Shown in pieces: positions 49,927 through 57,935 of a DNA stretch of 64,000 nucleotides. Under the pieces are notes generated by a model. It did not search any database. It was not told where the DNA came from and saw only the letters and a program-made list of their open reading frames with translations. Origin of the DNA: Bacteroidota bacterium (GTDB lineage Bacteria > Bacteroidota > Bacteroidia > 2-12-FULL-35-15). The stretch spans positions 211,907 through 275,906 of the forward strand of contig JAOQAG010000008.1 of assembly GCA_025963715.1 (NCBI GenBank), in the 5' to 3' direction. Each line of letters begins with the position of its first letter. Position 1 is the first letter of the stretch. A program made the position numbers and the translations under genes.

Positions 49927-50088
49927 TTTATTGGTTCATTAGGGTGCGCTGTGTGAACCTGTGTAAAATTTGGTCTGTCACGCACAGTAATTATCAATTG
50001 TCCATTATCAATTCTCAATTAAACAAAAAATCTGCGCTGGCATCTTTTTCGTATGTCGTTGTATATTCATCATTTAAATTTTACGGCT

Positions 50089-50592
50089 ATGAAACACCTG
50101 TTTTTTATATTCGCTGTTGCGATCTGCATTTCGGCGAATGCACAGCAACCGATCCCGCAACGTAGCACTACACCTTTCGCTGCTGATACGACCTGGACCA
50201 CGAAAGTGATCAAATCGAAAGAGGAATGGAAAAAGATCCTGACACCGCAACAATATTATATTACGCGTGAAGAAGGAACGGAAACGCCTTATTCAAAAGG
50301 GAATTTTTCCGACAATCATGAAAAAGGAATGTATTATTGCGTGTGCTGTAACAATCCTTTATTCAGCTCCGCAACCAAATTTGATTCGGGAACCGGCTGG
50401 CCAAGCTTCTGGAAAGCATATTCCACAAAAAGTATTCAGTTAAAAACGGATACATCTCTGGGCATGGATCGTAATGAAGTTTCCTGCAAACGCTGCGGCG
50501 CTCACTTAGGTCACGTTTTTGATGACGGCCCAAAACCAACAGGATTAAGGTACTGCATGGACGGAGCGGCATTGTTGTTCAGGAAAAGCTAA
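50089..50592 (+). CDS. msrB: Exported peptide methionine-(R)-sulfoxide reductase
   Basis: MsrB reduces methionine-R-sulfoxide in damaged proteins. The protein of about 167 residues has a signal peptide ([19 protein letters not shown]), so it acts in the periplasm or as a secreted enzyme. The zinc cysteines are CVCC and CKRC, the fold motif is [11 protein letters not shown], and the catalytic cysteine is in [12 protein letters not shown]. Start at ATG 50089 gives the signal peptide without extra residues. It is followed by a long AT-rich hairpin. Its periplasmic electron donor is not encoded nearby. Confidence 0.95.
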
Positions 50593-50893
50593 TTTATTTT
50601 TTAGTGTTTATTATTTTTTACACTCGCTTTTATTGCGATATAAGATACACATACACGTCTGAAAATTAAAATGGAATAATTACTTTATAAATAATTATTC
50701 CATTTTAATTTTATAACGACCCTCCCATAATTCCTTCAAATAAAGGGTTACAGACGACTACTATTTTTGGTGTATTTATTTTTCAGGAAAACAAAATTTA
50801 CTTTCTTCTATTTTTTTTACATCGTGCAACTTTATGCAACATTCCATTGTCTGAATTACAAATAGAATAACCACTGCTCCATTTTTGATTTTT
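50593..50893. other. Gene-free stretch with a 21-bp perfect hairpin and a shared upstream motif
   Basis: The hairpin at 50662-50712 has perfect 21-bp arms (AAAATTAAAATGGAATAATTA) and a 9-nt loop and probably ends msrB. At 50732-50757, CCTTCAAATAAAGGGTTACA (then GACGAC) closely matches a string at 57791-57815, about the same distance upstream of another gene. Confidence 0.6.
50662..50712. terminator. AT-rich terminator of msrB
   Basis: Perfect 21-bp inverted repeat with arms AAAATTAAAATGGAATAATTA and its complement around CTTTATAAA. It ends AATTTT but has no long T-run, so it may be a weak terminator or a stabilising 3' hairpin. Confidence 0.6.
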
Positions 50894-51334
50894 ATGAATG
50901 TTATTTGCCCTGACCAGTTTGCGCTGGACATAATTGCTCTGTACGATAAAGTGAACAACCATATTGAAAACATTGCTTTTTCTGAAGCTCGAAAAAGTCG
51001 TTATTTATTTATGATCCGGTCGGAGATCCGCCACTATTGCCGGTTAAGCTGTATTAATTACAATACGCATTTCAAGCAGAAAAAAGCATTGGTGGTTCCT
51101 TCCAGCCATTTTTTATATTTCCGTTTTTTAGCACTGGCATTGGCACATCTGCCGTTAAAGGAACTGCCGGGATTCCTGGAATACCAGTTTCAGCAATACG
51201 ATGGAAACAAGCTGGCAACGAGAGAAGAATTTAAAATTTATTTAAAAGAGAAATTACAGGACGAAGTGAAAACACTTTCTTTCAGTGATACGATCATTCG
51301 TTTGCAAACAATCGCACAGTGGGTAGATGGCTGA
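50894..51334 (+). CDS. Conserved-looking small protein of unknown function
   Basis: The 146-residue protein is helical and without signal peptide: DQFALDIIALYDKVNNHIE, AFSEARKSRYLFMIRSEIRH, then FLYFRFLALALAHLPLKELP and a charged C-terminal half. No motif is recognised. It starts with ATG at 50894 (a TTG nine bases upstream would add three residues). It is a monocistronic gene flanked by hairpins and repeats. The shared sequence element 137-162 nt upstream also precedes the 57.9-kb beta-barrel gene. Confidence 0.7.
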   Translation: MNVICPDQFALDIIALYDKVNNHIENIAFSEARKSRYLFMIRSEIRHYCRLSCINYNTHFKQKKALVVPSSHFLYFRFLALALAHLPLKELPGFLEYQFQQYDGNKLATREEFKIYLKEKLQDEVKTLSFSDTIIRLQTIAQWVDG

Positions 51335-51714
51335 GTTTAAAGTTAAATTTTTGAAAGTCCGTTGCTTCGTAGCATTAGCGCCGGACTTTCAACTTTAAAC
51401 TACTGCTTTTTTGAACTACAATTTTTTTTGAACCACAAAAGATTACAAAAGGAATTTCCCCTACTGTGTATTTCAACCACATAAGGCACAAAGAAACACA
51501 TAAGGCATTGTGTGGTTTGCTGTGTGTGAAGCTGTACGCGAAACACACCCCTAACCCCTCTCAAGAGGGGAATTTGATTCTGCTGAATTAAAAATTATAG
51601 TTTTAAATATAATTATAGAATAATAATATAATCACACTGTATGCAGCATGCATTCCCCTCTTGAGAGGGGTTAGGGGTGTGTTAAAAACATAGATAATTT
51701 AAAACACTTCCTGT
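51335..51714. repeat. Repeat-only stretch with a 32-bp inverted pair
   Basis: A hairpin with an 8-nt interruption spans 51333-51401 (GAAAGTCCG / CGGACTTTC core). ACCACAAAAGATTACAAAAG begins at 51432 and ACCACATAAGGCACAAAGAA at 51477. AACACACCCCTAACCCCTCT (51542) is perfectly inverted at 51652-51683, 32-bp arms, with an AT-rich centre. No gene is present. Confidence 0.8.
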
Positions 51715-52692
51715 TTACACCATCGCTTCCTTATTGTATTTATTCCGATACTCGATCGGCGATACACCGGTGATCTTGCGAAAAACCGTGCGAAATGCTT
51801 TTGTATCGGTATAACCGACATCATCCATTACTTCATTGATATTTTTCCTGCTGCTTTCAAAACTTTTTTTGGCGGCTTCAATTTTTACACGCTGAATGTA
51901 TTCGATAACGGTGTTGCAGGTTGCTTTCTTAAAGCGGCGCTCAAAACTTCTTCTGCCAACGGAATACATATCCGCTAACTGGTCAACGGTTATTTTGTCG
52001 GCGTAATGTTTTTCAATGTATTCCTGCGCTTTTTTCACTTCGTGATCTTCATGCTCTTTCTGGCCTTTAAAAATAATAAATGCCGACTGGCTGCTTCTGC
52101 CAATATCAACGGCAAAATATTTGGAAGCATGGATCGCCACTTCCCTGTCAGTATATTTTTCTACGAGATGCAGCAATAAATTCCAGTACGACATAGCGCC
52201 ACCGCTGGAATACAAGCCGTTTTGCTCGGTGATGATGCTGCCGTCGACCAGTTGTACATCGGGGAACATTTCCCTGAACTCGTTTGCAAACAGCCAATGT
52301 GTGGAACATTGTTTTCCTTTTAACAAACCGGTGGATGCCAGTAAAAATGCACCAATGCAGAGACTTGCTACTTCCGCTCCATCTTTGTATTGTTGCGTGA
52401 TCCAGGGAATAAAATCTTTATTGAGCTTCAGGGTGTTTTTCATATCACCGCTGAGTGCGGGAATAAAAATAAGATCTGTTTTTTTTACATCACCGATAAG
52501 CACATCGGGATAAATGCTGAAGGAATCATCGTTGAGCTTTACTTCTTTTGTAAGCCCTACCAGCTGCACTTTAAATAATGGTGGCTTACCAAGCTGTTTT
52601 AAAAACTGGTTGGCCGCGGTAAACATATAGCGCGGATCGGCAATGGCAGCAAGCACTGCTTCATTGGGTACAAGAATGGATACGTGTTTCAT
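51715..52692 (-). CDS. GlxA-type transcriptional regulator (DJ-1/PfpI plus AraC domains)
   Basis: The 325-residue protein has an N-terminal DJ-1/PfpI-like domain (SILVPNEAVLAAIADPRYMF, IPALSGDM, VASLCIGAFLLASTG with a nucleophile-elbow cysteine, YSSGGAMSYWNLLLH) and a C-terminal AraC helix-turn-helix pair (ITVDQLADMYSVGRRSFERR; INEVMDDVGYTDTKAFRTVF). This fusion is typical of GlxA/FtrA regulators; the N-terminal half usually senses a ligand and is not catalytic. A TACTTTTG element lies only 4 nt before the ATG (minus strand, 52697-52704). It is divergent from a DoxX-like gene, which it may regulate. Confidence 0.9.
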   Translation of the reverse strand: MKHVSILVPNEAVLAAIADPRYMFTAANQFLKQLGKPPLFKVQLVGLTKEVKLNDDSFSIYPDVLIGDVKKTDLIFIPALSGDMKNTLKLNKDFIPWITQQYKDGAEVASLCIGAFLLASTGLLKGKQCSTHWLFANEFREMFPDVQLVDGSIITEQNGLYSSGGAMSYWNLLLHLVEKYTDREVAIHASKYFAVDIGRSSQSAFIIFKGQKEHEDHEVKKAQEYIEKHYADKITVDQLADMYSVGRRSFERRFKKATCNTVIEYIQRVKIEAAKKSFESSRKNINEVMDDVGYTDTKAFRTVFRKITGVSPIEYRNKYNKEAMV

Positions 52693-52811
52693 ATTACAAA
52701 AGTAAAAAATTAACTTGTCGCGATCAACCCCTTTGATTGTCGTTTTTACACCCTTTACAATTGCAGATTTTCACAATACCTTTGCAGTATCAACTAAAAC
52801 TTTTAGAAAAC

Positions 52812-53186
52812 ATGAGCGCAAAAACAGTTAAAATCATTTATTGGATCGCAACGGTGCTGATTGCATTGTTCGTCCTTCCGGGAATTTTTTTCCTGAACAG
52901 TCCCATGGCGGTTGAAGGATCGCGACACCTGGGCGTACCCGAATGGCTGCGCCTGGAAGTCGGCATCGGCCATTTTATCGGTGCACTGATTCTGATCATT
53001 CCGGTGTTTGGCAAACGCATTAAAGAGTGGGCGTATGTGGCATTGGGCATCGAATACATTTCTGCGATCATTGCGCATTTATATGTGGATGGCGTAACAA
53101 GCGAAGCCTTTTTTGCGCTGATCATTTTTGTGATCCTTTTGATCTCCTATATTTTTTACCACAAGATGAAGGACGCTGTAGCGTAA
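52812..53186 (+). CDS. DoxX-like membrane protein
   Basis: The 124-residue protein has four hydrophobic helices (IIYWIATVLIALFVLPGIFFL, GIGHFIGALILIIPVF, IKEWAYVALGIEYISAIIAHLY, FFALIIFVILLISYIFY), in the pattern of the DoxX-like family. It resembles the second DoxX-like gene at 55.4 kb, sharing the IKEWAYxxL piece and the terminal YxFYHKxK. A TACCTTTG element is at 52777-52784. The ATG at 52812 was chosen; the longer frame starts before the promoter. It is followed by a 71-residue protein 6 nt later. Function unknown. Confidence 0.85.
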   Translation: MSAKTVKIIYWIATVLIALFVLPGIFFLNSPMAVEGSRHLGVPEWLRLEVGIGHFIGALILIIPVFGKRIKEWAYVALGIEYISAIIAHLYVDGVTSEAFFALIIFVILLISYIFYHKMKDAVA

Positions 53187-53192
53187 AGCGCG

Positions 53193-53408
53193 ATGGTAGA
53201 AATTTTTAAAACAAATGTGAATGATCGTGATCAGGCGCAATTGCTGCTGACCGAGATCCATAAGGCTTTCAGTGTTTATAAAGCTAATTTTGATTTGGAG
53301 GACTGTGATAAGATCCTGCGTGTAAAATGCACGGAGGAAATTATCCAGCCTTCTTCTTTGATCGCATTCCTGGAAAATTTTGGTTGTAGTGCTGAGGTTA
53401 TTTTTTGA
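53193..53408 (+). CDS. Small protein of unknown function, ferredoxin-like fold possible
   Basis: The 71-residue protein reads MVEIFKTNVNDRDQAQLLL, then a central FDLEDCDKILRVKC and a C-terminal LIAFLENFGCSAEVIF. The beta-alpha-beta-beta-alpha-beta pattern and the paired cysteines suggest a small ferredoxin-like (HMA-type) fold, though the metal-binding CxxC is absent. It overlaps nothing and lies 6 nt after the DoxX-like gene, so it is probably co-transcribed. I do not recognise an experimentally studied member. Confidence 0.7.
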   Translation: MVEIFKTNVNDRDQAQLLLTEIHKAFSVYKANFDLEDCDKILRVKCTEEIIQPSSLIAFLENFGCSAEVIF

Positions 53409-53790
53409 TATTTCTATGCCTTTACTTTTTGAAGGCAAAAAGTAACAATCCGCCGCGGCGGACTGGCCTGTAAGGTAATTTTTCCTTCCGCTGGCGCTGC
53501 AGGAAAACCGCGGTTAATTTCGCGGACGCAGTCATCGCTTCGTAGTTATAATTTTTCTGCCGCTCATTCCCGCTATTACTGAACAGGCCGAAATAGTCTG
53601 CAGAATGAGTCTGCAGAATGAGTCTGCTTTTATTTTGCAAATAAGGATTTCAATAAACTTACATGCTCTAATGCAAGAACCATTTGGTATAAACTTTCCG
53701 GTAATTATAATATTGTCCTTTCCTGCCGCGAAAGCCTGTTATTCCTACCATTTATTTATTCATAATTAAAAAAACGAAAAATAAATTTGC
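53409..53790. other. Gene-free stretch before the arsR-like operon
   Basis: Contains a TTACTTTTTG/CAAAAAGTAA-type hairpin near 53421-53444, a GC-rich palindrome AATCCGCCGCGGCGGACT near 53446-53463 related to the 48.9-kb element, and a short tandem repeat of GCAGAATGAGTCT near 53601-53628. A 72-residue minus-strand open frame across it looks spurious. Confidence 0.5.
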
Positions 53791-53832
53791 GTAACCGAAC
53801 AGTTACATATATATTTGTAACCGATCAGTTAC
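53782..53832 (+). promoter_or_regulatory. Duplicated promoter-operator module of the ArsR-like gene
   Basis: TAAATTTG (53782-53789) is followed by GTAACCGAACAGTTAC (53791-53806); TATATTTG (53810-53817) is followed by GTAACCGATCAGTTAC (53817-53832). So a -7 element plus a GTAAC-N6-GTTAC palindrome occurs twice at a spacing of about 26-28 nt, upstream of ATG 53851. These are likely binding sites of the ArsR-like protein. Confidence 0.7.
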
Positions 53833-53850
53833 ATAATTAATAGTATTAAA

Positions 53851-54234
53851 ATGAGAAGAGATGTATTCCAGGCCATAGCCGACCCGACACGCAGAGAAAT
53901 CATTGGCATGCTTGCCAGCCAGTCGCTGAACCTGAATTCGGTTGCGGAACATTTTGATGTGAGCCGTCCCGCGATCTCGAAACATATAAAGATCCTGACG
54001 GAATGCGGATTGATCACGATCACGCAGCAGGGCCGGGAGCGCTACTGCGAGGCAAAGCTGGAAAAGCTGAATGAAGTATCGGACTGGGTGGAGAAATATA
54101 AAAAGTTCTGGACCGGAAAACTGGATGCGCTTGAAATCTACCTGATGGAAATGCAGGCGGAAGAAAAATCAAAAAAGAAATCTTCAAAGAAATCAGATAA
54201 ATTAAAAAAGAAAAAACATGGCAGAAAAAAATGA
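53851..54234 (+). CDS. ArsR-family transcriptional regulator
   Basis: The 127-residue protein has the ArsR winged helix-turn-helix (MRRDVFQAIADPTRREIIG, LNSVAEHFDVSRPAISKHIK, LTECGLITITQQGRERYC), about residues 1-90. The ADPTRREI opening is typical of the subgroup coupled to SRPBCC genes. The tail from about residue 103 is unusually lysine-rich (KKKSSKKSDKLKKKKHGRKK). No metal-site cysteines are seen. It overlaps the next gene by 17 nt, so they are translationally coupled. It probably represses its own operon through the two palindromes upstream; the inducer is unknown. Confidence 0.92.
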   Translation: MRRDVFQAIADPTRREIIGMLASQSLNLNSVAEHFDVSRPAISKHIKILTECGLITITQQGRERYCEAKLEKLNEVSDWVEKYKKFWTGKLDALEIYLMEMQAEEKSKKKSSKKSDKLKKKKHGRKK

Positions 54235-54724
54235 TTTTACGATCACGCGGGTGTTCAATGCATCACGTGATCTTGTATGGAAAGCACATACGGAAGCAAA
54301 ACATCTTGCAAAATGGTGGGGTCCAAAAGGTTTTAAAATGCTGGCCTGTAACCTGGATCTGCGCCCGGGCGGTATGTTCCATTACGGAATGGAATCGCCG
54401 GACGGGCATACAATGTGGGGCAAATTCATCTACCGCGAAGTACAGCCGCAGGAGAAACTTGTATTTGTTGTCTCGTTCTCAGACGAGAACGGTGGCACCA
54501 CACGCCATCCGATGAGCGAGAACTGGCCGCTGGAAGTATTGAATACGGCAACGTTTACAGAGCAGGACGGAAAAACAACGATGGTTATTAAAGGACATCC
54601 GGTAAACGCCCTCCAAGAAGAAGAGGAAACATTTTTTGCTGCATTTAACGGCATGAACCAGGGCTTTAATGGAACATACGACCAGTTTGAGGAATATCTT
54701 ACAAGTATTATACATTCAAAATAA
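54218..54724 (+). CDS. SRPBCC (AHSA1-like) protein 1
   Basis: The 168-residue protein has the helix-grip START/Bet v1-like fold: FTITRVFNASRDLVWKAHTE, AKWWGPKGFKM, DLRPGGMFHYGMESPDGH, GKFIYREVQPQEKLVFVVSF and a C-terminal helix (MNQGFNGTYDQFEEYL). AHSA1-like proteins bind hydrophobic ligands or act as co-chaperones of Hsp90-type proteins; the ligand here is unknown. It overlaps the ArsR-like gene and is 7 nt from a paralogue. It is the first of three SRPBCC genes in this locus. Confidence 0.9.
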   Translation: MAEKNDFTITRVFNASRDLVWKAHTEAKHLAKWWGPKGFKMLACNLDLRPGGMFHYGMESPDGHTMWGKFIYREVQPQEKLVFVVSFSDENGGTTRHPMSENWPLEVLNTATFTEQDGKTTMVIKGHPVNALQEEEETFFAAFNGMNQGFNGTYDQFEEYLTSIIHSK

Positions 54725-54731
54725 ACGTAAA

Positions 54732-55202
54732 ATGACAACAACAGACAACGATACATCCGGCCGTGAGCTGGTAATAAGCCGCACATTGAATGCGCCGCGC
54801 GAACTGGTATGGAAAGCATGGACATCGCCGGAGCACCTGATCAACTGGTGGGGGCCAACCGGTTTTACAAATACATTTAAAGAGATCAGCATTAAACCGG
54901 GCGGCGTTTGGCTGTTTACAATGCACGGCCCGGACGGTACGGATTACCCGAACAGGATCATTTTTAAAGAAGTGGTAAAGCCTGAGCGATTGGCGTATGC
55001 GCATGATTCGGGAGAAGATAATGATCCGCAATTATTCAACGTGGTTGTAACATTTGAAAAAGCGGGCGATAAAACCAACCTGACCATGAAGAGTATTTTT
55101 GCTTCGGTGGAAGCTCTTAAATTAGTAGTGGACCAATACGGTGCAATAGAAGGCGGCAATCAAACGATCGATCGTTTGGAAGCGGCATTAAAAGAAATGT
55201 AA
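54732..55202 (+). CDS. SRPBCC (AHSA1-like) protein 2
   Basis: The 156-residue paralogue of the preceding protein reads ELVISRTLNAPRELVWKAWT, INWWGPTGFTNTFKEISIKP, GGVWLFTMHGPDGTDYPNRI and a C-terminal helix. The ATG at 54732 (MTTTDNDTS) was chosen; the longer frame would overlap the previous gene by more than 50 nt. It lies 7 nt after the first SRPBCC gene, in the same transcript. Pocket residues differ from copy 1, so the ligands may differ. Confidence 0.9.
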   Translation: MTTTDNDTSGRELVISRTLNAPRELVWKAWTSPEHLINWWGPTGFTNTFKEISIKPGGVWLFTMHGPDGTDYPNRIIFKEVVKPERLAYAHDSGEDNDPQLFNVVVTFEKAGDKTNLTMKSIFASVEALKLVVDQYGAIEGGNQTIDRLEAALKEM

Positions 55203-55243
55203 AAGCGTTAACATGGTTCATTGCAAGATCTGTGTATTTTTGA

Positions 55244-55264
55244 ACCACAAAAGAAAACAAAAGA
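55244..55264 (+). repeat. Dispersed ACCACAAAAG repeat copy
   Basis: ACCACAAAAGAAAACAAAAG occurs in the 179-nt gap between the second SRPBCC gene and the DoxX-like gene. It is identical to the inner arm of the nested palindrome near 13.0 kb and to the copy at 40473. Confidence 0.75.
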
Positions 55265-55381
55265 ACAGAAAAGGCGTGATGAGTACTGGCTGGTCGTACT
55301 TGAATAAAAAAATTAAAATAATGTTTCAAATATTCATTAAATCTAATTCAACAAAAAGTATAAACTAAAAATCAAACAAAC

Positions 55382-55750
55382 ATGAAAAAAACAAACATTA
55401 TTTACTGGACCCTGACGGGATTATTTGCTGCATTTATGATCTTCACGGCTATCCCTGATATTTTAAAAACGCCGGAAACTGTTGACTTTATGACGAAACT
55501 GGGTTACCCGGTTTATTTTACTCCGTTCATCGGGGTGGCAAAAGTGCTGGGTGGACTCGCAATCGTGATCCCGGGTTTTCCGCGCATCAAAGAGTGGGCG
55601 TATGCAGGATTGATGTTCGACCTGATCGGTGCAATGTATTCGATCATGGCTGTTAACGGCGTTGCACAAAGCTTAATGATGCTGGTATTTATCGCATTTG
55701 GTTTCAGCTCGTATTTTTTCTATCACAAAAAATTAAAACTTGCTGCATAA
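55382..55750 (+). CDS. DoxX-like membrane protein
   Basis: The 122-residue protein has four hydrophobic helices (IIYWTLTGLFAAFMIFTAIP, FIGVAKVLGGLAIVIPGF, IKEWAYAGLMFDLIGAMYSI, LMMLVFIAFGFSSYFFYHKK). It is related to the 52.8-kb protein through IKEWAY and the YFFYHKK end. DoxX-like proteins are often found beside SRPBCC genes in Bacteroidetes. It starts 179 nt after SRPBCC 2 and 17 nt before SRPBCC 3, so it may have a separate promoter but shares the locus. Function unknown. Confidence 0.87.
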   Translation: MKKTNIIYWTLTGLFAAFMIFTAIPDILKTPETVDFMTKLGYPVYFTPFIGVAKVLGGLAIVIPGFPRIKEWAYAGLMFDLIGAMYSIMAVNGVAQSLMMLVFIAFGFSSYFFYHKKLKLAA

Positions 55751-55767
55751 ATTATTTACTATTAAAA

Positions 55768-56214
55768 ATGAACGACATGAAAAATGAACCATTCGTAATT
55801 GAGCGCACGTACAATGCGCCAATTGCAACAGTCTGGAAAGCCATCACCAACAGGGACGACATGGAGCAATGGTATTTTAAGCTGAAAGAATTTAAACCCG
55901 AAGTGGGATTTAAATTTGAGTTTACCGGCGGTGATGAAAAAATGGAATACCTGCATGAATGTATTGTGCAGGAAGTGGTTCCCGGTAAAAAAATAGCATA
56001 CACCTGGCGTTATCCGGAGTATGAAGGCAGCTCACTTGTAACATGGGAATTGTTTGAGGAAGGAAACAAAACGCGATTGAAATTAACGCACGAAGGTTTG
56101 GAAACATTCCCGAAAAACAATTCTTCTTTTGCAAAAGAAAGCTTTGCAGGAGGCTGGACGTACATTACCGGCACTTCACTGAAAGAGTTTGTAGAAAAAG
56201 GTACACAAAGCTAG
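55768..56214 (+). CDS. SRPBCC (AHSA1-like) protein 3
   Basis: The 148-residue protein has the same fold as the two above: FVIERTYNAPIATVWKAITN, MEQWYFKLKEFKPEVGFKFE, AYTWRYPEYEGSSLVTWELF and a C-terminal helix (GGWTYITGTSLKEFVEKG). It diverges from copies 1 and 2: the WWGP loop is replaced by WYFKLK. It lies 17 nt after the DoxX-like gene, and a terminator hairpin follows about 30 nt after the stop. Ligand unknown. Confidence 0.9.
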   Translation: MNDMKNEPFVIERTYNAPIATVWKAITNRDDMEQWYFKLKEFKPEVGFKFEFTGGDEKMEYLHECIVQEVVPGKKIAYTWRYPEYEGSSLVTWELFEEGNKTRLKLTHEGLETFPKNNSSFAKESFAGGWTYITGTSLKEFVEKGTQS

Positions 56215-56243
56215 TTTTTTCACGAGTACAAACCTGCTAAAAC

Positions 56244-56276
56244 AAGCCACCGGAAGCTATTTTCGGTGGCTTATTT
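56244..56276 (+). terminator. Terminator of the DoxX-SRPBCC unit
   Basis: AAGCCACCG and CGGTGGCTT form a 9-bp stem around GAAGCTATTTT, followed by a T-rich stretch (ATTTTGTATTT). It closes the ArsR/SRPBCC/DoxX locus. Confidence 0.75.
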
Positions 56277-56398
56277 TGTATTTAACAGCATATTCATTTT
56301 TTGCGTATAAGTTACAGATGTAAGAAATTACGCATTTTTGTAAAATTCCTGAAATGCTCAGGGGCTATTTTTGATATACAAATCAATACAATAGCCCG

Positions 56399-57475
56399 AT
56401 GAAAAAAGCTATTAACTTCCTGATGTACCTGGTAATTTTTGTTTTTACCAAAAACGCAACGGCCCAGGTGTATGCTAATTCGCAAACTTTTAATGTAACC
56501 GGACTATGCATCGGTTGTGGCATTTCAACTCCGGCAAATTCGGTGGATGCCCCGATTACCAATTACGAAACCATGAGCCTGACGGTTTCTGTTCTGGGAG
56601 CAAATGTGACACAAAAATTTGTTTTTCCTTCTACGGGCAGCGTTGGGAATTATGTGGGCGTGGTGGTAGAAAATCCATCACTCGGGGCGCTTAATTCTAC
56701 ATTGCTGAATAGCCTGAGTGTTACTACTTTTTTATCCGGGGTATCCAATGCTGATACAAAAAATGCCGGTGGAATGCTGGTTTCTAATATAGGTGGTTCG
56801 CTCTGGAAAATGGAATTTACCACCGCATACTCTTTTAATCAGCTGGAAGTGAAATTCGATGCCGGGATATTGGGTGCTATGAACAATGTGCATGTTTATT
56901 ATGCCTATTATACAACCGTAGCGCCATTACCGATCGAGCTGCTTTCCTTTGGTGCACAAGCTAAGGACAAAGCAATTGATTTAAACTGGAGTACCGCTTC
57001 GGAACAGAACAACGATCATTTTACCGTGGAAAAAAGTACGGATGCCATTCATTATTCGGAAGTTACAAATGTGAGCGGTTCGGGAACCAGCACCAATGTA
57101 CATCAATATACGTATGCAGATCAACATCCGCTTTCCGGCCTAAGCTATTATCGCCTCAAACAAACTGATTTTGACGGGAATTTCAAGTATTTTACAACAT
57201 TATCTGTTAATTATACAGCTCCGGATCCGGGCTATTACTACGTTTATCCGAATCCATCCGGGAACGGTGCTATTCATTTGATAATGCCGTGTGCAGGAAC
57301 AAGGGTAAAAATTATAAACACAACCGGGCAGCTGATTCTTGAAAAAGTATACAGCGATGCGGGAGATTACACGGAAGATTTATCTGCGCTCAACAATCCA
57401 ATAGCTCCCGGAATGTATTTTATCTTGTTTATTTCCGGCGAAAGCAGTCAAACGTTCAGGCAAATTATCCAATAA
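56399..57475 (+). CDS. T9SS cargo protein with C-terminal sorting domain
   Basis: The 358-residue protein has a signal peptide (MKKAINFLMYLVIFVFTKNATAQ), an N-terminal all-beta part with a cysteine pair (GLCIGCGIS), then the frequent Bacteroidetes stretch PLPIELLSFGAQAKDKAIDL, a FNIII-like piece (VEKSTDAIHYSEV) and a T9SS sorting domain (VYPNPSGNGAIHLI, VKIINTTGQLILEK, GMYFILFI) ending TFRQIIQ. It should be exported and attached to the cell surface. The N-terminal part is not recognised. A terminator follows at about 57.63 kb. Confidence 0.86.
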   Translation: MKKAINFLMYLVIFVFTKNATAQVYANSQTFNVTGLCIGCGISTPANSVDAPITNYETMSLTVSVLGANVTQKFVFPSTGSVGNYVGVVVENPSLGALNSTLLNSLSVTTFLSGVSNADTKNAGGMLVSNIGGSLWKMEFTTAYSFNQLEVKFDAGILGAMNNVHVYYAYYTTVAPLPIELLSFGAQAKDKAIDLNWSTASEQNNDHFTVEKSTDAIHYSEVTNVSGSGTSTNVHQYTYADQHPLSGLSYYRLKQTDFDGNFKYFTTLSVNYTAPDPGYYYVYPNPSGNGAIHLIMPCAGTRVKIINTTGQLILEKVYSDAGDYTEDLSALNNPIAPGMYFILFISGESSQTFRQIIQ

Positions 57476-57935
57476 TAAAATTTACTACTCGGTGTTTGAT
57501 CTACTAAATACCAATTAATACGAATATATTAATCTGTGTGATGCTGTGTATAATGGAACGCAAATTTGGCAGATGATGCGGTGTAAATAGAATTTGTGTG
57601 ATGGTTTAATACAGCACACAACCCTATCCAAACAAAAGCCTCTTGTTATAATAAACAAGGGGCTTTCTCAATTTTATCCCTGATTGAGTAAACAAATCTA
57701 CGTTGAGAAATTTGCAGAATAAAGCATTTTGATAAATCATCTTATCAAAAAATAAATTTCATTTAACAAAACACATTATTATCTTATAAACCCTTTAAAT
57801 AAAGGATCACAGACAGTATAAAAAATCATACCTGCATAATAATGAATGATGCGGCATACCTGTATTGCGTCAATAAATGAGATGGTATGTATTTTTAAAT
57901 GGGTAATTAAACAAACAACTAAAAAATTAGTAATC
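57476..57935. other. Gene-free stretch with a terminator and a shared upstream motif
   Basis: The terminator of the T9SS gene is at 57635-57674 (AAAGCC-CTTGTT and AACAAG-GGCTTT arms, one bulge, T-rich end). CCCTTTAAATAAAGGATCACA (57791 on) contains the small palindrome CCTTTA-AA-TAAAGG and matches the string at 50732. GTGTATAATGGAACGC at about 57546 is related to the long REP-like element. No other gene is seen. Confidence 0.55.

Follow-up and report, generated by a model that had tools for sequence, protein, structure and literature searches.

Two adjacent, probably autoregulated gene units with conserved putative operators at an ArsR–SRPBCC–DoxX locus of a Bacteroidota bacterium

The subject of this work is a cluster of eight genes at positions 51715–56214 of a 64,000-nucleotide (nt) stretch of DNA, hereafter the window, from a Bacteroidota bacterium (GenBank assembly GCA_025963715.1, contig JAOQAG010000008.1, positions 211,907 to 275,906 of the forward strand). 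The cluster encodes two regulators (one ArsR-type, one GlxA-type), three AHSA1-like SRPBCC proteins (SRPBCC1–3), two DoxX-like proteins (DoxXa and DoxXb) and a protein of 71 residues, HP71. It is a real, conserved and modular detoxification-type locus of the known ArsR–SRPBCC kind. The reading we favour, with moderate confidence, is that it consists of two adjacent, separately autoregulated units drawing on one small-molecule-handling pool, the molecule being a small hydrophobic or electrophilic compound. This reading is built on sequence comparison – gene content, the sites before both regulators, co-occurrence, and covariation at ArsR residue 44 – together with a modelled fold for HP71; from these we infer repression, activation, ligand, cysteine sensing and the roles of the SRPBCC, DoxX and HP71 proteins. 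Its most interesting features are the operators, which can be read from the sequence, the code at residue 44, and HP71 as a protein family. Literature searches brought up no recognisable title on the tandem operator, the code or HP71.

An earlier note on this DNA had described one packed locus of eight genes, two regulators included, in 4.5 kb. All eight are present and adjoin as described, but their spacing delineates two transcription units rather than a single block. In the first, the GlxA-type gene is divergent from DoxXa and HP71; the second runs ArsR–SRPBCC1–SRPBCC2–DoxXb–SRPBCC3 and closes with a terminator-like hairpin (Table 1; a terminator scan of the stretch called two sites, shuffled sequences giving a mean of 0.7). 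A gap of 442 nt separates the end of HP71 from the start of ArsR. The SRPBCC1 start overlaps the ArsR end by 17 nt, and a longer form of SRPBCC2 is possible from an in-frame ATG at 54669.

The case for autoregulation begins at the ArsR promoter, where two palindromes (GTAACCGAnCAGTTAC) lie 26 nt apart with a -7-like box between them; the Bacteroidota promoter consensus is TTTG / TAnnTTTG. Exact matches to the operator consensus, GTAACYGNNCRGTTAC, number four across the 4.9-Mb genome: two at the ArsR promoter and two within open reading frames (ORFs). A reversed-pattern control gave none. For comparison with relatives we used the best 80 of 488 candidates, named GTDB loci from the ArsR alignment, of which 78 had a usable ArsR (L051 and L076, with no ArsR call, were left out of the operon counts). 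Allowing at most one mismatch to AACCN4GGTT, at least one site is found in 73 of the 79 ArsR upstream regions (78 loci plus the window) compared with 29 of 735 controls and a mean of 2.2 in shuffles; a tandem pair is found in 60 of the 79, compared with 5 of 735 controls and none in 100 shuffles. The spacing within the pair is 26 nt in 39 of these 60 loci, and in 59 a -7-like box (by a lax pattern) stands between both operators.

Of the five tandem hits among the controls, four come from L048, L083 and L085, where the site precedes the gene that lies immediately before ArsR (the L048 site being counted from both sides). The ArsRs of these three loci have no sites of their own: the site thus marks the start of the operon. 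That upstream gene is reductase-like by reading, and one resembling it in L037 belongs to RibD_C. The remaining site-less ArsRs, of six altogether, are two with GTAAG-type sites (L081 and L118) and one, L115, that is unexplained. Within the window's own genome a search allowing up to three mismatches returned 23 forward and 19 reverse matches (control, 21 and 18), and the seven other matches examined all fall within ORFs; we therefore claim no wider ArsR regulon.

ArsR residue 44 appears to predict operator base 5, K or R going with C and Q or L with G. The GTAAG variants in L049, L081 and L118 belong to the three ArsRs with Q44. The code was tested on extra loci, including a second subfamily (about 50% identical) and all 144 distinct ArsRs; the first batch added one Q and the 144-ArsR set one further Q and two L, all with G. 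In the final table base C accompanies K in 112 cases and R in one (113 together), and base G accompanies Q in 5/5 and L in 3/3 (8/8 together). N44 goes with A once. Three ArsRs with K44 (L069, L084 and L273) have another base, but inspection suggests that the wrong site was picked: AACC sites are present as well in two of the three, and L273 has GTAGC. No site was called for 19 of the 144 ArsRs, 16 of them K and three, without a symmetric site, N; in the second-subfamily batch 10 K and 4 N of 40 lacked a palindrome, and 8 of the 30 loci of the first extra batch were left out because they failed the start/helix pattern. Mixed sites also occur, the second site of L049 (Q) joining one GTAAC half to one GTAAG half and the site of L253 (N) having one GCAAC half. 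Fisher's test of the association gives 1.4e-11 (relatedness not corrected), and residue 44 changed about eight times on a FastTree tree by parsimony.

Twelve plasmid records from several phyla were kept out of the code table. An annotated SRPBCC or polyketide-cyclase gene adjoins ArsR in nine of them, and ArsRs next to SRPBCC are annotated 'metalloregulator'. AACC palindromes accompany the K-type ArsRs of Sinorhizobium, Nostoc, Azospirillum and Spirosoma and the R-type ArsR of Streptomyces, and Roseibium (Q) has TAAG. R. ruizarguesonis and Rhodococcus (both K) have no AAC palindrome and misfit the code; Methylosinus (N) and Qingshengfaniella (G) have other palindromes, and the Gemmatirosa record, in which the ORF was wrongly picked, falls outside the evaluation. 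On Ensifer adhaerens p1 (Q by reading) tandem AAGG-type repeats can be seen by eye upstream of ArsR, and a divergent dihydrofolate reductase family gene stands alongside the ArsR–SRPBCC pair.

The GlxA-type unit carries a site of a different kind, a tandem direct repeat in the intergenic region shared with DoxXa. Permitting at most seven mismatches of 26 fixed bases and a spacing of 21–23, the repeat is found in 25 of 41 GlxA-type upstream regions – the same regions from which the pattern was derived – compared with 2 of 1845 controls and none in 20 shuffles; its period is 21–22 nt, and one of the two control hits belongs to the N-terminal portion of a GlxA-type gene that is split. An alternative register of the pattern, tandem in 2/41, was dropped in favour of this one. 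With no more than one mismatch allowed, the half-site is matched just once in the 4.9-Mb genome. The protein itself (E≤1e-60) is found in 37 of 295 genomes of the class, own included, and among 29 class loci SRPBCC, DoxX, HP71 or ArsR genes lie within 1.5 kb on its upstream side in 16 and on its downstream side in one; glyoxalase-fold, SRPBCC, DUF1801 and DoxX genes occupy the divergent side in several. The architecture is that of the GlxA/FtrA regulators, from which the window protein is set apart by its own conserved direct-repeat site and by a score well below the FtrA equivalog cut-off (NF006902, 151.7 bits vs 425).

The genes of the locus recur as a modular pool, reshuffled with enzyme genes among relatives. 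Of 78 ArsR operons SRPBCC is present in 71 (0 to 5 ORFs per operon), DoxX in 19 and HP71 in 8, and DoxX accompanies HP71 in seven of these eight (Fisher 1.3e-4, uncorrected). DoxX density is 8.0 per 100 kb in the first 2 kb downstream of ArsR and 5.0 at 2–4 kb, compared with 0–0.8 upstream. DoxXa and HP71 sit with the GlxA-type gene here; elsewhere DoxX and HP71 are found in ArsR operons. GlxA-type genes occur in 13 of the 78 ArsR loci, seven of them strong matches (E<1e-100), with no rise in their density near ArsR. Co-conservation, by which the earlier note was to be judged, is therefore genuine but partial. Its remark that no catalytic enzyme is present is true of the window copy but not of the operons of relatives, among which an alpha/beta-hydrolase cluster occurs in eight (all with DoxX), a reductase-like (RibD_C-like) cluster in five, glyoxalase-fold 3-dmu-9_3-mt in four and DUF4287 in three; members of three of these four clusters were scanned by family search. 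Within the genus three neighbourhoods were opened, and in two of them (G006 and G003) ArsR is followed by SRPBCC genes, the last a relative of SRPBCC3; neither of the two has a DoxX match.

HP71, encoded by the ORF at 53193–53408 and described in the earlier note as cysteine-containing, has three cysteines and is an uncharacterised family for which models predict a heavy-metal-associated (HMA)-like fold without CxxC. No Pfam or NCBIfam match was found at E≤0.1, and a profile search against PDB sequences gave no credible match (best E 0.016, PDZ proteins). AlphaFold2 returns a model (pLDDT, the predicted local distance difference test, 93.5) of beta-alpha-beta-beta-alpha-beta order. With Foldseek nothing reached E≤0.001; its best 23 rows are HMA-type domains with E of 0.003–0.05 and template-modelling (TM) scores up to about 0.8, and VIA-align Z scores are about 9–11, reaching 11.3 (11.2 for the gold-binding protein GolB). 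Since the best Foldseek E is only 0.003, the assignment leans on the TM score and VIA-align Z, where the margin is modest because unrelated rows of HIV-1 (human immunodeficiency virus type 1) reverse transcriptase reach 9.3. The predicted fold is common to the HMA metallochaperones CopZ, Atx1 and GolB (62–68 residues aligned at 1.3–2.2 Å), whereas CxxC, absent from all 16 aligned HP71 sequences, gives way to near-invariant TN and DxxDCD motifs. Invariant residues are E3, T7, D34, D37, C38, D39, L42 and R43, and, going by fold topology, the TN loop and DCD hairpin should share a pole with the HMA metal site. At E≤1e-6 HP71 is found in 27 of 295 class genomes, own included, and of 29 HP71 loci in the class eight have DoxX no more than 1.5 kb away.

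The three AHSA1-like proteins and two DoxX-like proteins recognised in the earlier note all score above their family cut-offs, and both IKEWAY and FYHK are found in DoxXa and in DoxXb. Low identities (36% between DoxXa and DoxXb, 25–32% among SRPBCC1–3) mark them as old paralogues. Among 33 aligned DoxX relatives KEWA is nearly universal (K in 32; E, W and A in 33), and FYHK falls outside the columns kept in at least 85%. In the topology of a FastTree tree DoxXa groups with the GlxA-linked DoxX proteins of L184 and L189 and the ArsR-linked one of L084, and DoxXb with DoxX proteins of ArsR operons. SRPBCC3 has 66% identical homologues downstream of ArsR in two genomes of the same genus (L016 and L017); for the closest SRPBCC1 relative found (74%; G081, L030), the stretch examined gave no match to ArsR. 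In L041–L120, 28 SRPBCC ORFs of at least 280 residues resemble fused doubles; in 15 of them the N half is closer to SRPBCC2 and the C half to SRPBCC1. A mycobacterial DoxX protein works within a thiol-oxidoreductase complex (as cited in PMC7907618): this DoxX–SseA–SodA complex likewise joins a DoxX-family membrane protein to cytosolic partners (as cited in PMC7907618 and PMC8638967), but includes a rhodanese and a superoxide dismutase, neither of which is in the window units, and HP71 has a different fold. The precise role of DoxX is described in two papers as unknown or needing study.

ArsR is a winged helix-turn-helix (HTH) protein of the ArsR/SmtB family (PF01022, 47.3 bits vs 22; NF033788, 73.7 vs 55) and scores below the cut-off of the SdpR subfamily (NF033789, 66 bits vs 100). 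Residues 23–37, the helix that we take to hold the Cys pair of the classical metal site, contain no cysteine; the domain holds only C52, present in 79/79 aligned ArsRs (window included), and C66, present in 78/79. Its Lys-rich tail (KKKSSKKSDKLKKKKHGRKK, 54162–54234) has counterparts in two relatives from the genus. The nearest studied system is Rv2034–Rv2035(–Rv2036) of Mycobacterium tuberculosis, with MSMEG_6762–6760 of M. smegmatis. Rv2034 represses itself at CCGTAAGT-N4-ACTTACGG, is unrelieved by seven metals, and requires its only cysteine, C61, for repression (PMC3338718); were it numbered like MSMEG_6762, whose H54 would be H45 here, C61 would be the invariant C52. Both systems have ArsR directly followed by an overlapping SRPBCC gene and, in the window by sequence, a GTAA-N8-TTAC palindrome near the start site. 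Rv2034 has one footprinted site, of GTAAG type (PMC3338718), whereas the window has two predicted sites of GTAAC type; DoxX, HP71 and a GlxA-type gene are present in the window and not reported alongside Rv2034–Rv2035 in the available parts of the sources.

We propose that an ArsR dimer on the two palindromes would shut off its own operon, by analogy with Rv2034, and that repression would be lifted not by a metal but by a small compound of hydrophobic or electrophilic character, with Cys52 and Cys66 as candidate sensing residues. SRPBCC proteins would bind the compound, and DoxX may handle it, or its thiol effect, at the membrane. The GlxA-type regulator, with its DJ-1-like sensor domain, would bind the direct repeat, which covers the -33 region of its own gene, and would control the divergent DoxXa–HP71 pair, probably as an activator. 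The inducible ligand-binding and membrane-protein system suspected in the earlier note thus probably exists, in so far as its genes recur and appear autoregulated, but as two units with different conserved sites.

Several observations weigh against this proposal. ArsR–SRPBCC is the core, with DoxX and HP71 optional; since GlxA-type density does not rise near ArsR, the adjacency of the two units may be chance; and SRPBCC1 homologues (E≤1e-20) are found in just 4 of 36 genomes of the genus, own included. The 80 ArsR loci, being the best of 488 candidates, are related, and the operator pattern was derived from the upstream regions later counted, so that greater weight falls on the controls than on the count itself. 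Rv2034 is only distantly related; NF033788 labels the window ArsR a 'metalloregulator'; and the searched DJ-1 Cys motif is present in only 24/41 GlxA-type proteins, which makes any sensing chemistry for them conjectural. What we say of binding, expression and ligand for both regulators is conditional, being read from DNA and protein sequences.

A mere juxtaposition of small, readily transferred genes with no function in common would account for variable gene content, sparseness within the genus and two different regulators; we think it unlikely given the enrichment of DoxX downstream of ArsR, the pairing of HP71 with DoxX and the one-sided neighbours of GlxA-type genes. A metal response, with ArsR as metalloregulator and HP71 as metallochaperone, draws on the NF033788 label and the predicted HMA-like fold. 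We consider it quite improbable: the ArsR helix lacks cysteines, HP71 lacks CxxC, Rv2034 does not respond to the metals tried (PMC3338718), and no metal pump was noticed on reading the recurring neighbour clusters, not all of which were scanned. Very improbable, in our judgement, is a type II toxin–antitoxin module with ArsR as antitoxin and the SRPBCC (COG3832) protein as toxin, even though COG3832–ArsR (Rv2035–Rv2034) is listed as such a pair (PMC3968373), the same has been predicted for MSMEG_6762–6760, and the genes overlap next to predicted sites for the DNA-binding partner at its own promoter. The operons hold no fixed pair, some adding DoxX, hydrolase or glyoxalase-fold genes, and in M. 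smegmatis, cells that expressed just the SRPBCC protein grew and ArsR overexpression was lethal (PMC9416677; others, as cited there, saw no effect).

A defence against quinones or electrophiles is a special case of the two-unit reading, and a possible one that we hold tentatively. In the Bacillus mhqNOPED (mhqOPED) and catDE operons a repressor controls DoxX together with genes of the glyoxalase-fold and hydrolase kinds; relatives of our locus combine the same gene kinds, a likeness of gene content rather than a comparison of sequences, and both ArsR and HP71 have conserved cysteines. The Bacillus repressors are of MarR/DUF24 type, a place that ArsR or the GlxA-type regulator would take here, but the window copy has no glyoxalase-fold or hydrolase enzyme, no dioxygenase being found among its scanned genes; the 3-dmu-9_3-mt kind is only putatively a dioxygenase, and the ligand is itself inferred. 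Equally tentative is a wider picture joining the separate strands, in which a Bacteroidota-wide pool would be interchangeably controlled by ArsR and GlxA-type autoregulators, each with a tandem operator; a one-residue code (K/R44 with GTAAC, Q/L44 with GTAAG) would extend beyond the phylum; and HP71 would be a new HMA-fold family with a TN/DCD-Cys site in place of CxxC, serving as a cysteine or metal relay for DoxX.

Table 1. Features of the two units, in window coordinates.
Feature	Position	Strand	Evidence
GlxA-type regulator, N-terminal DJ-1/PfpI-like and C-terminal AraC HTH	51715–52692	-	PF01965, PF12833, PF00165 above Pfam cut-off
-7-like box TACTTTTG of GlxA-type gene	52697–52704	-	read from sequence; consensus TAnnTTTG
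Putative tandem direct-repeat site GGGTGTAAAAACGACA-N6-GGGGTTGATCGCGACA, 22-nt period, GlxA type/DoxXa intergenic	52716–52753	-	sequence comparison
-7-like box TACCTTTG of DoxXa	52777–52784	+	read from sequence; same consensus
DoxXa, DoxX_2, 124 aa	52812–53186	+	PF13564, 53.8 bits vs cut-off 26.3
HP71, 71 aa, predicted HMA-like fold, T7-N8 and D37-C38-D39 motifs	53193–53408	+	alignment, AlphaFold2
ArsR promoter: TTTG (-33, 53786–53789), N20, TATATTTG (-7, 53810–53817)	53786–53817	+	read from sequence
Putative operator O1 GTAACCGAACAGTTAC, within -33/-7 spacer	53791–53806	.	sequence comparison
Putative operator O2 GTAACCGATCAGTTAC, last -7-box base over likely start site	53817–53832	.	sequence comparison
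ArsR, Lys-rich tail, K44/C52/C66	53851–54234	+	HTH_5 and NF033788 above cut-off
SRPBCC1 (AHSA1)	54218–54724	+	PF08327, 87.9 bits vs cut-off 22.1
SRPBCC2 (AHSA1)	54732–55202	+	PF08327, 106.4 bits vs cut-off 22.1
DoxXb, DoxX_2, 122 aa	55382–55750	+	PF13564, 77.9 bits vs cut-off 26.3
SRPBCC3 (AHSA1)	55768–56214	+	PF08327, 85.7 bits vs cut-off 22.1
Intrinsic-terminator-like hairpin after ArsR operon	56244–56272	+	13-pair stem, T-rich tail

The surroundings of the locus show no island signature in GC content, and Rfam gave no match at the gathering threshold in 50000–57500. A perfect 32-nt inverted repeat (CACACCCCTAACCCCTCTCAAGAGGGG...) with 78 nt between its arms occupies 51542–51683; the arm has 78 genome matches at up to one mismatch, many paired about 110 nt apart, and the whole resembles elements of the miniature inverted-repeat transposable or repetitive extragenic palindromic kind. 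Before it, 1.1 kb beyond the GlxA-type gene and on the opposite strand, lies a gene for an MsrB-type methionine sulfoxide reductase (50053–50592, TIGR00357 above cut-off). A 27-nt near-repeat (93%; TTTTTGAACCACAAAAGA...) is found both outside the locus, at 51425–51451, and between SRPBCC2 and DoxXb, at 55237–55263.

ArsR–SRPBCC pairs are widespread, and the locus described here offers several ways into their biology. Its conserved operators supply ready-made reporter promoters with which to look for the inducer, DNA recognition can be tested directly and cheaply through the residue-44 rule, and HP71 is a well-delimited uncharacterised protein to study together with DoxX.

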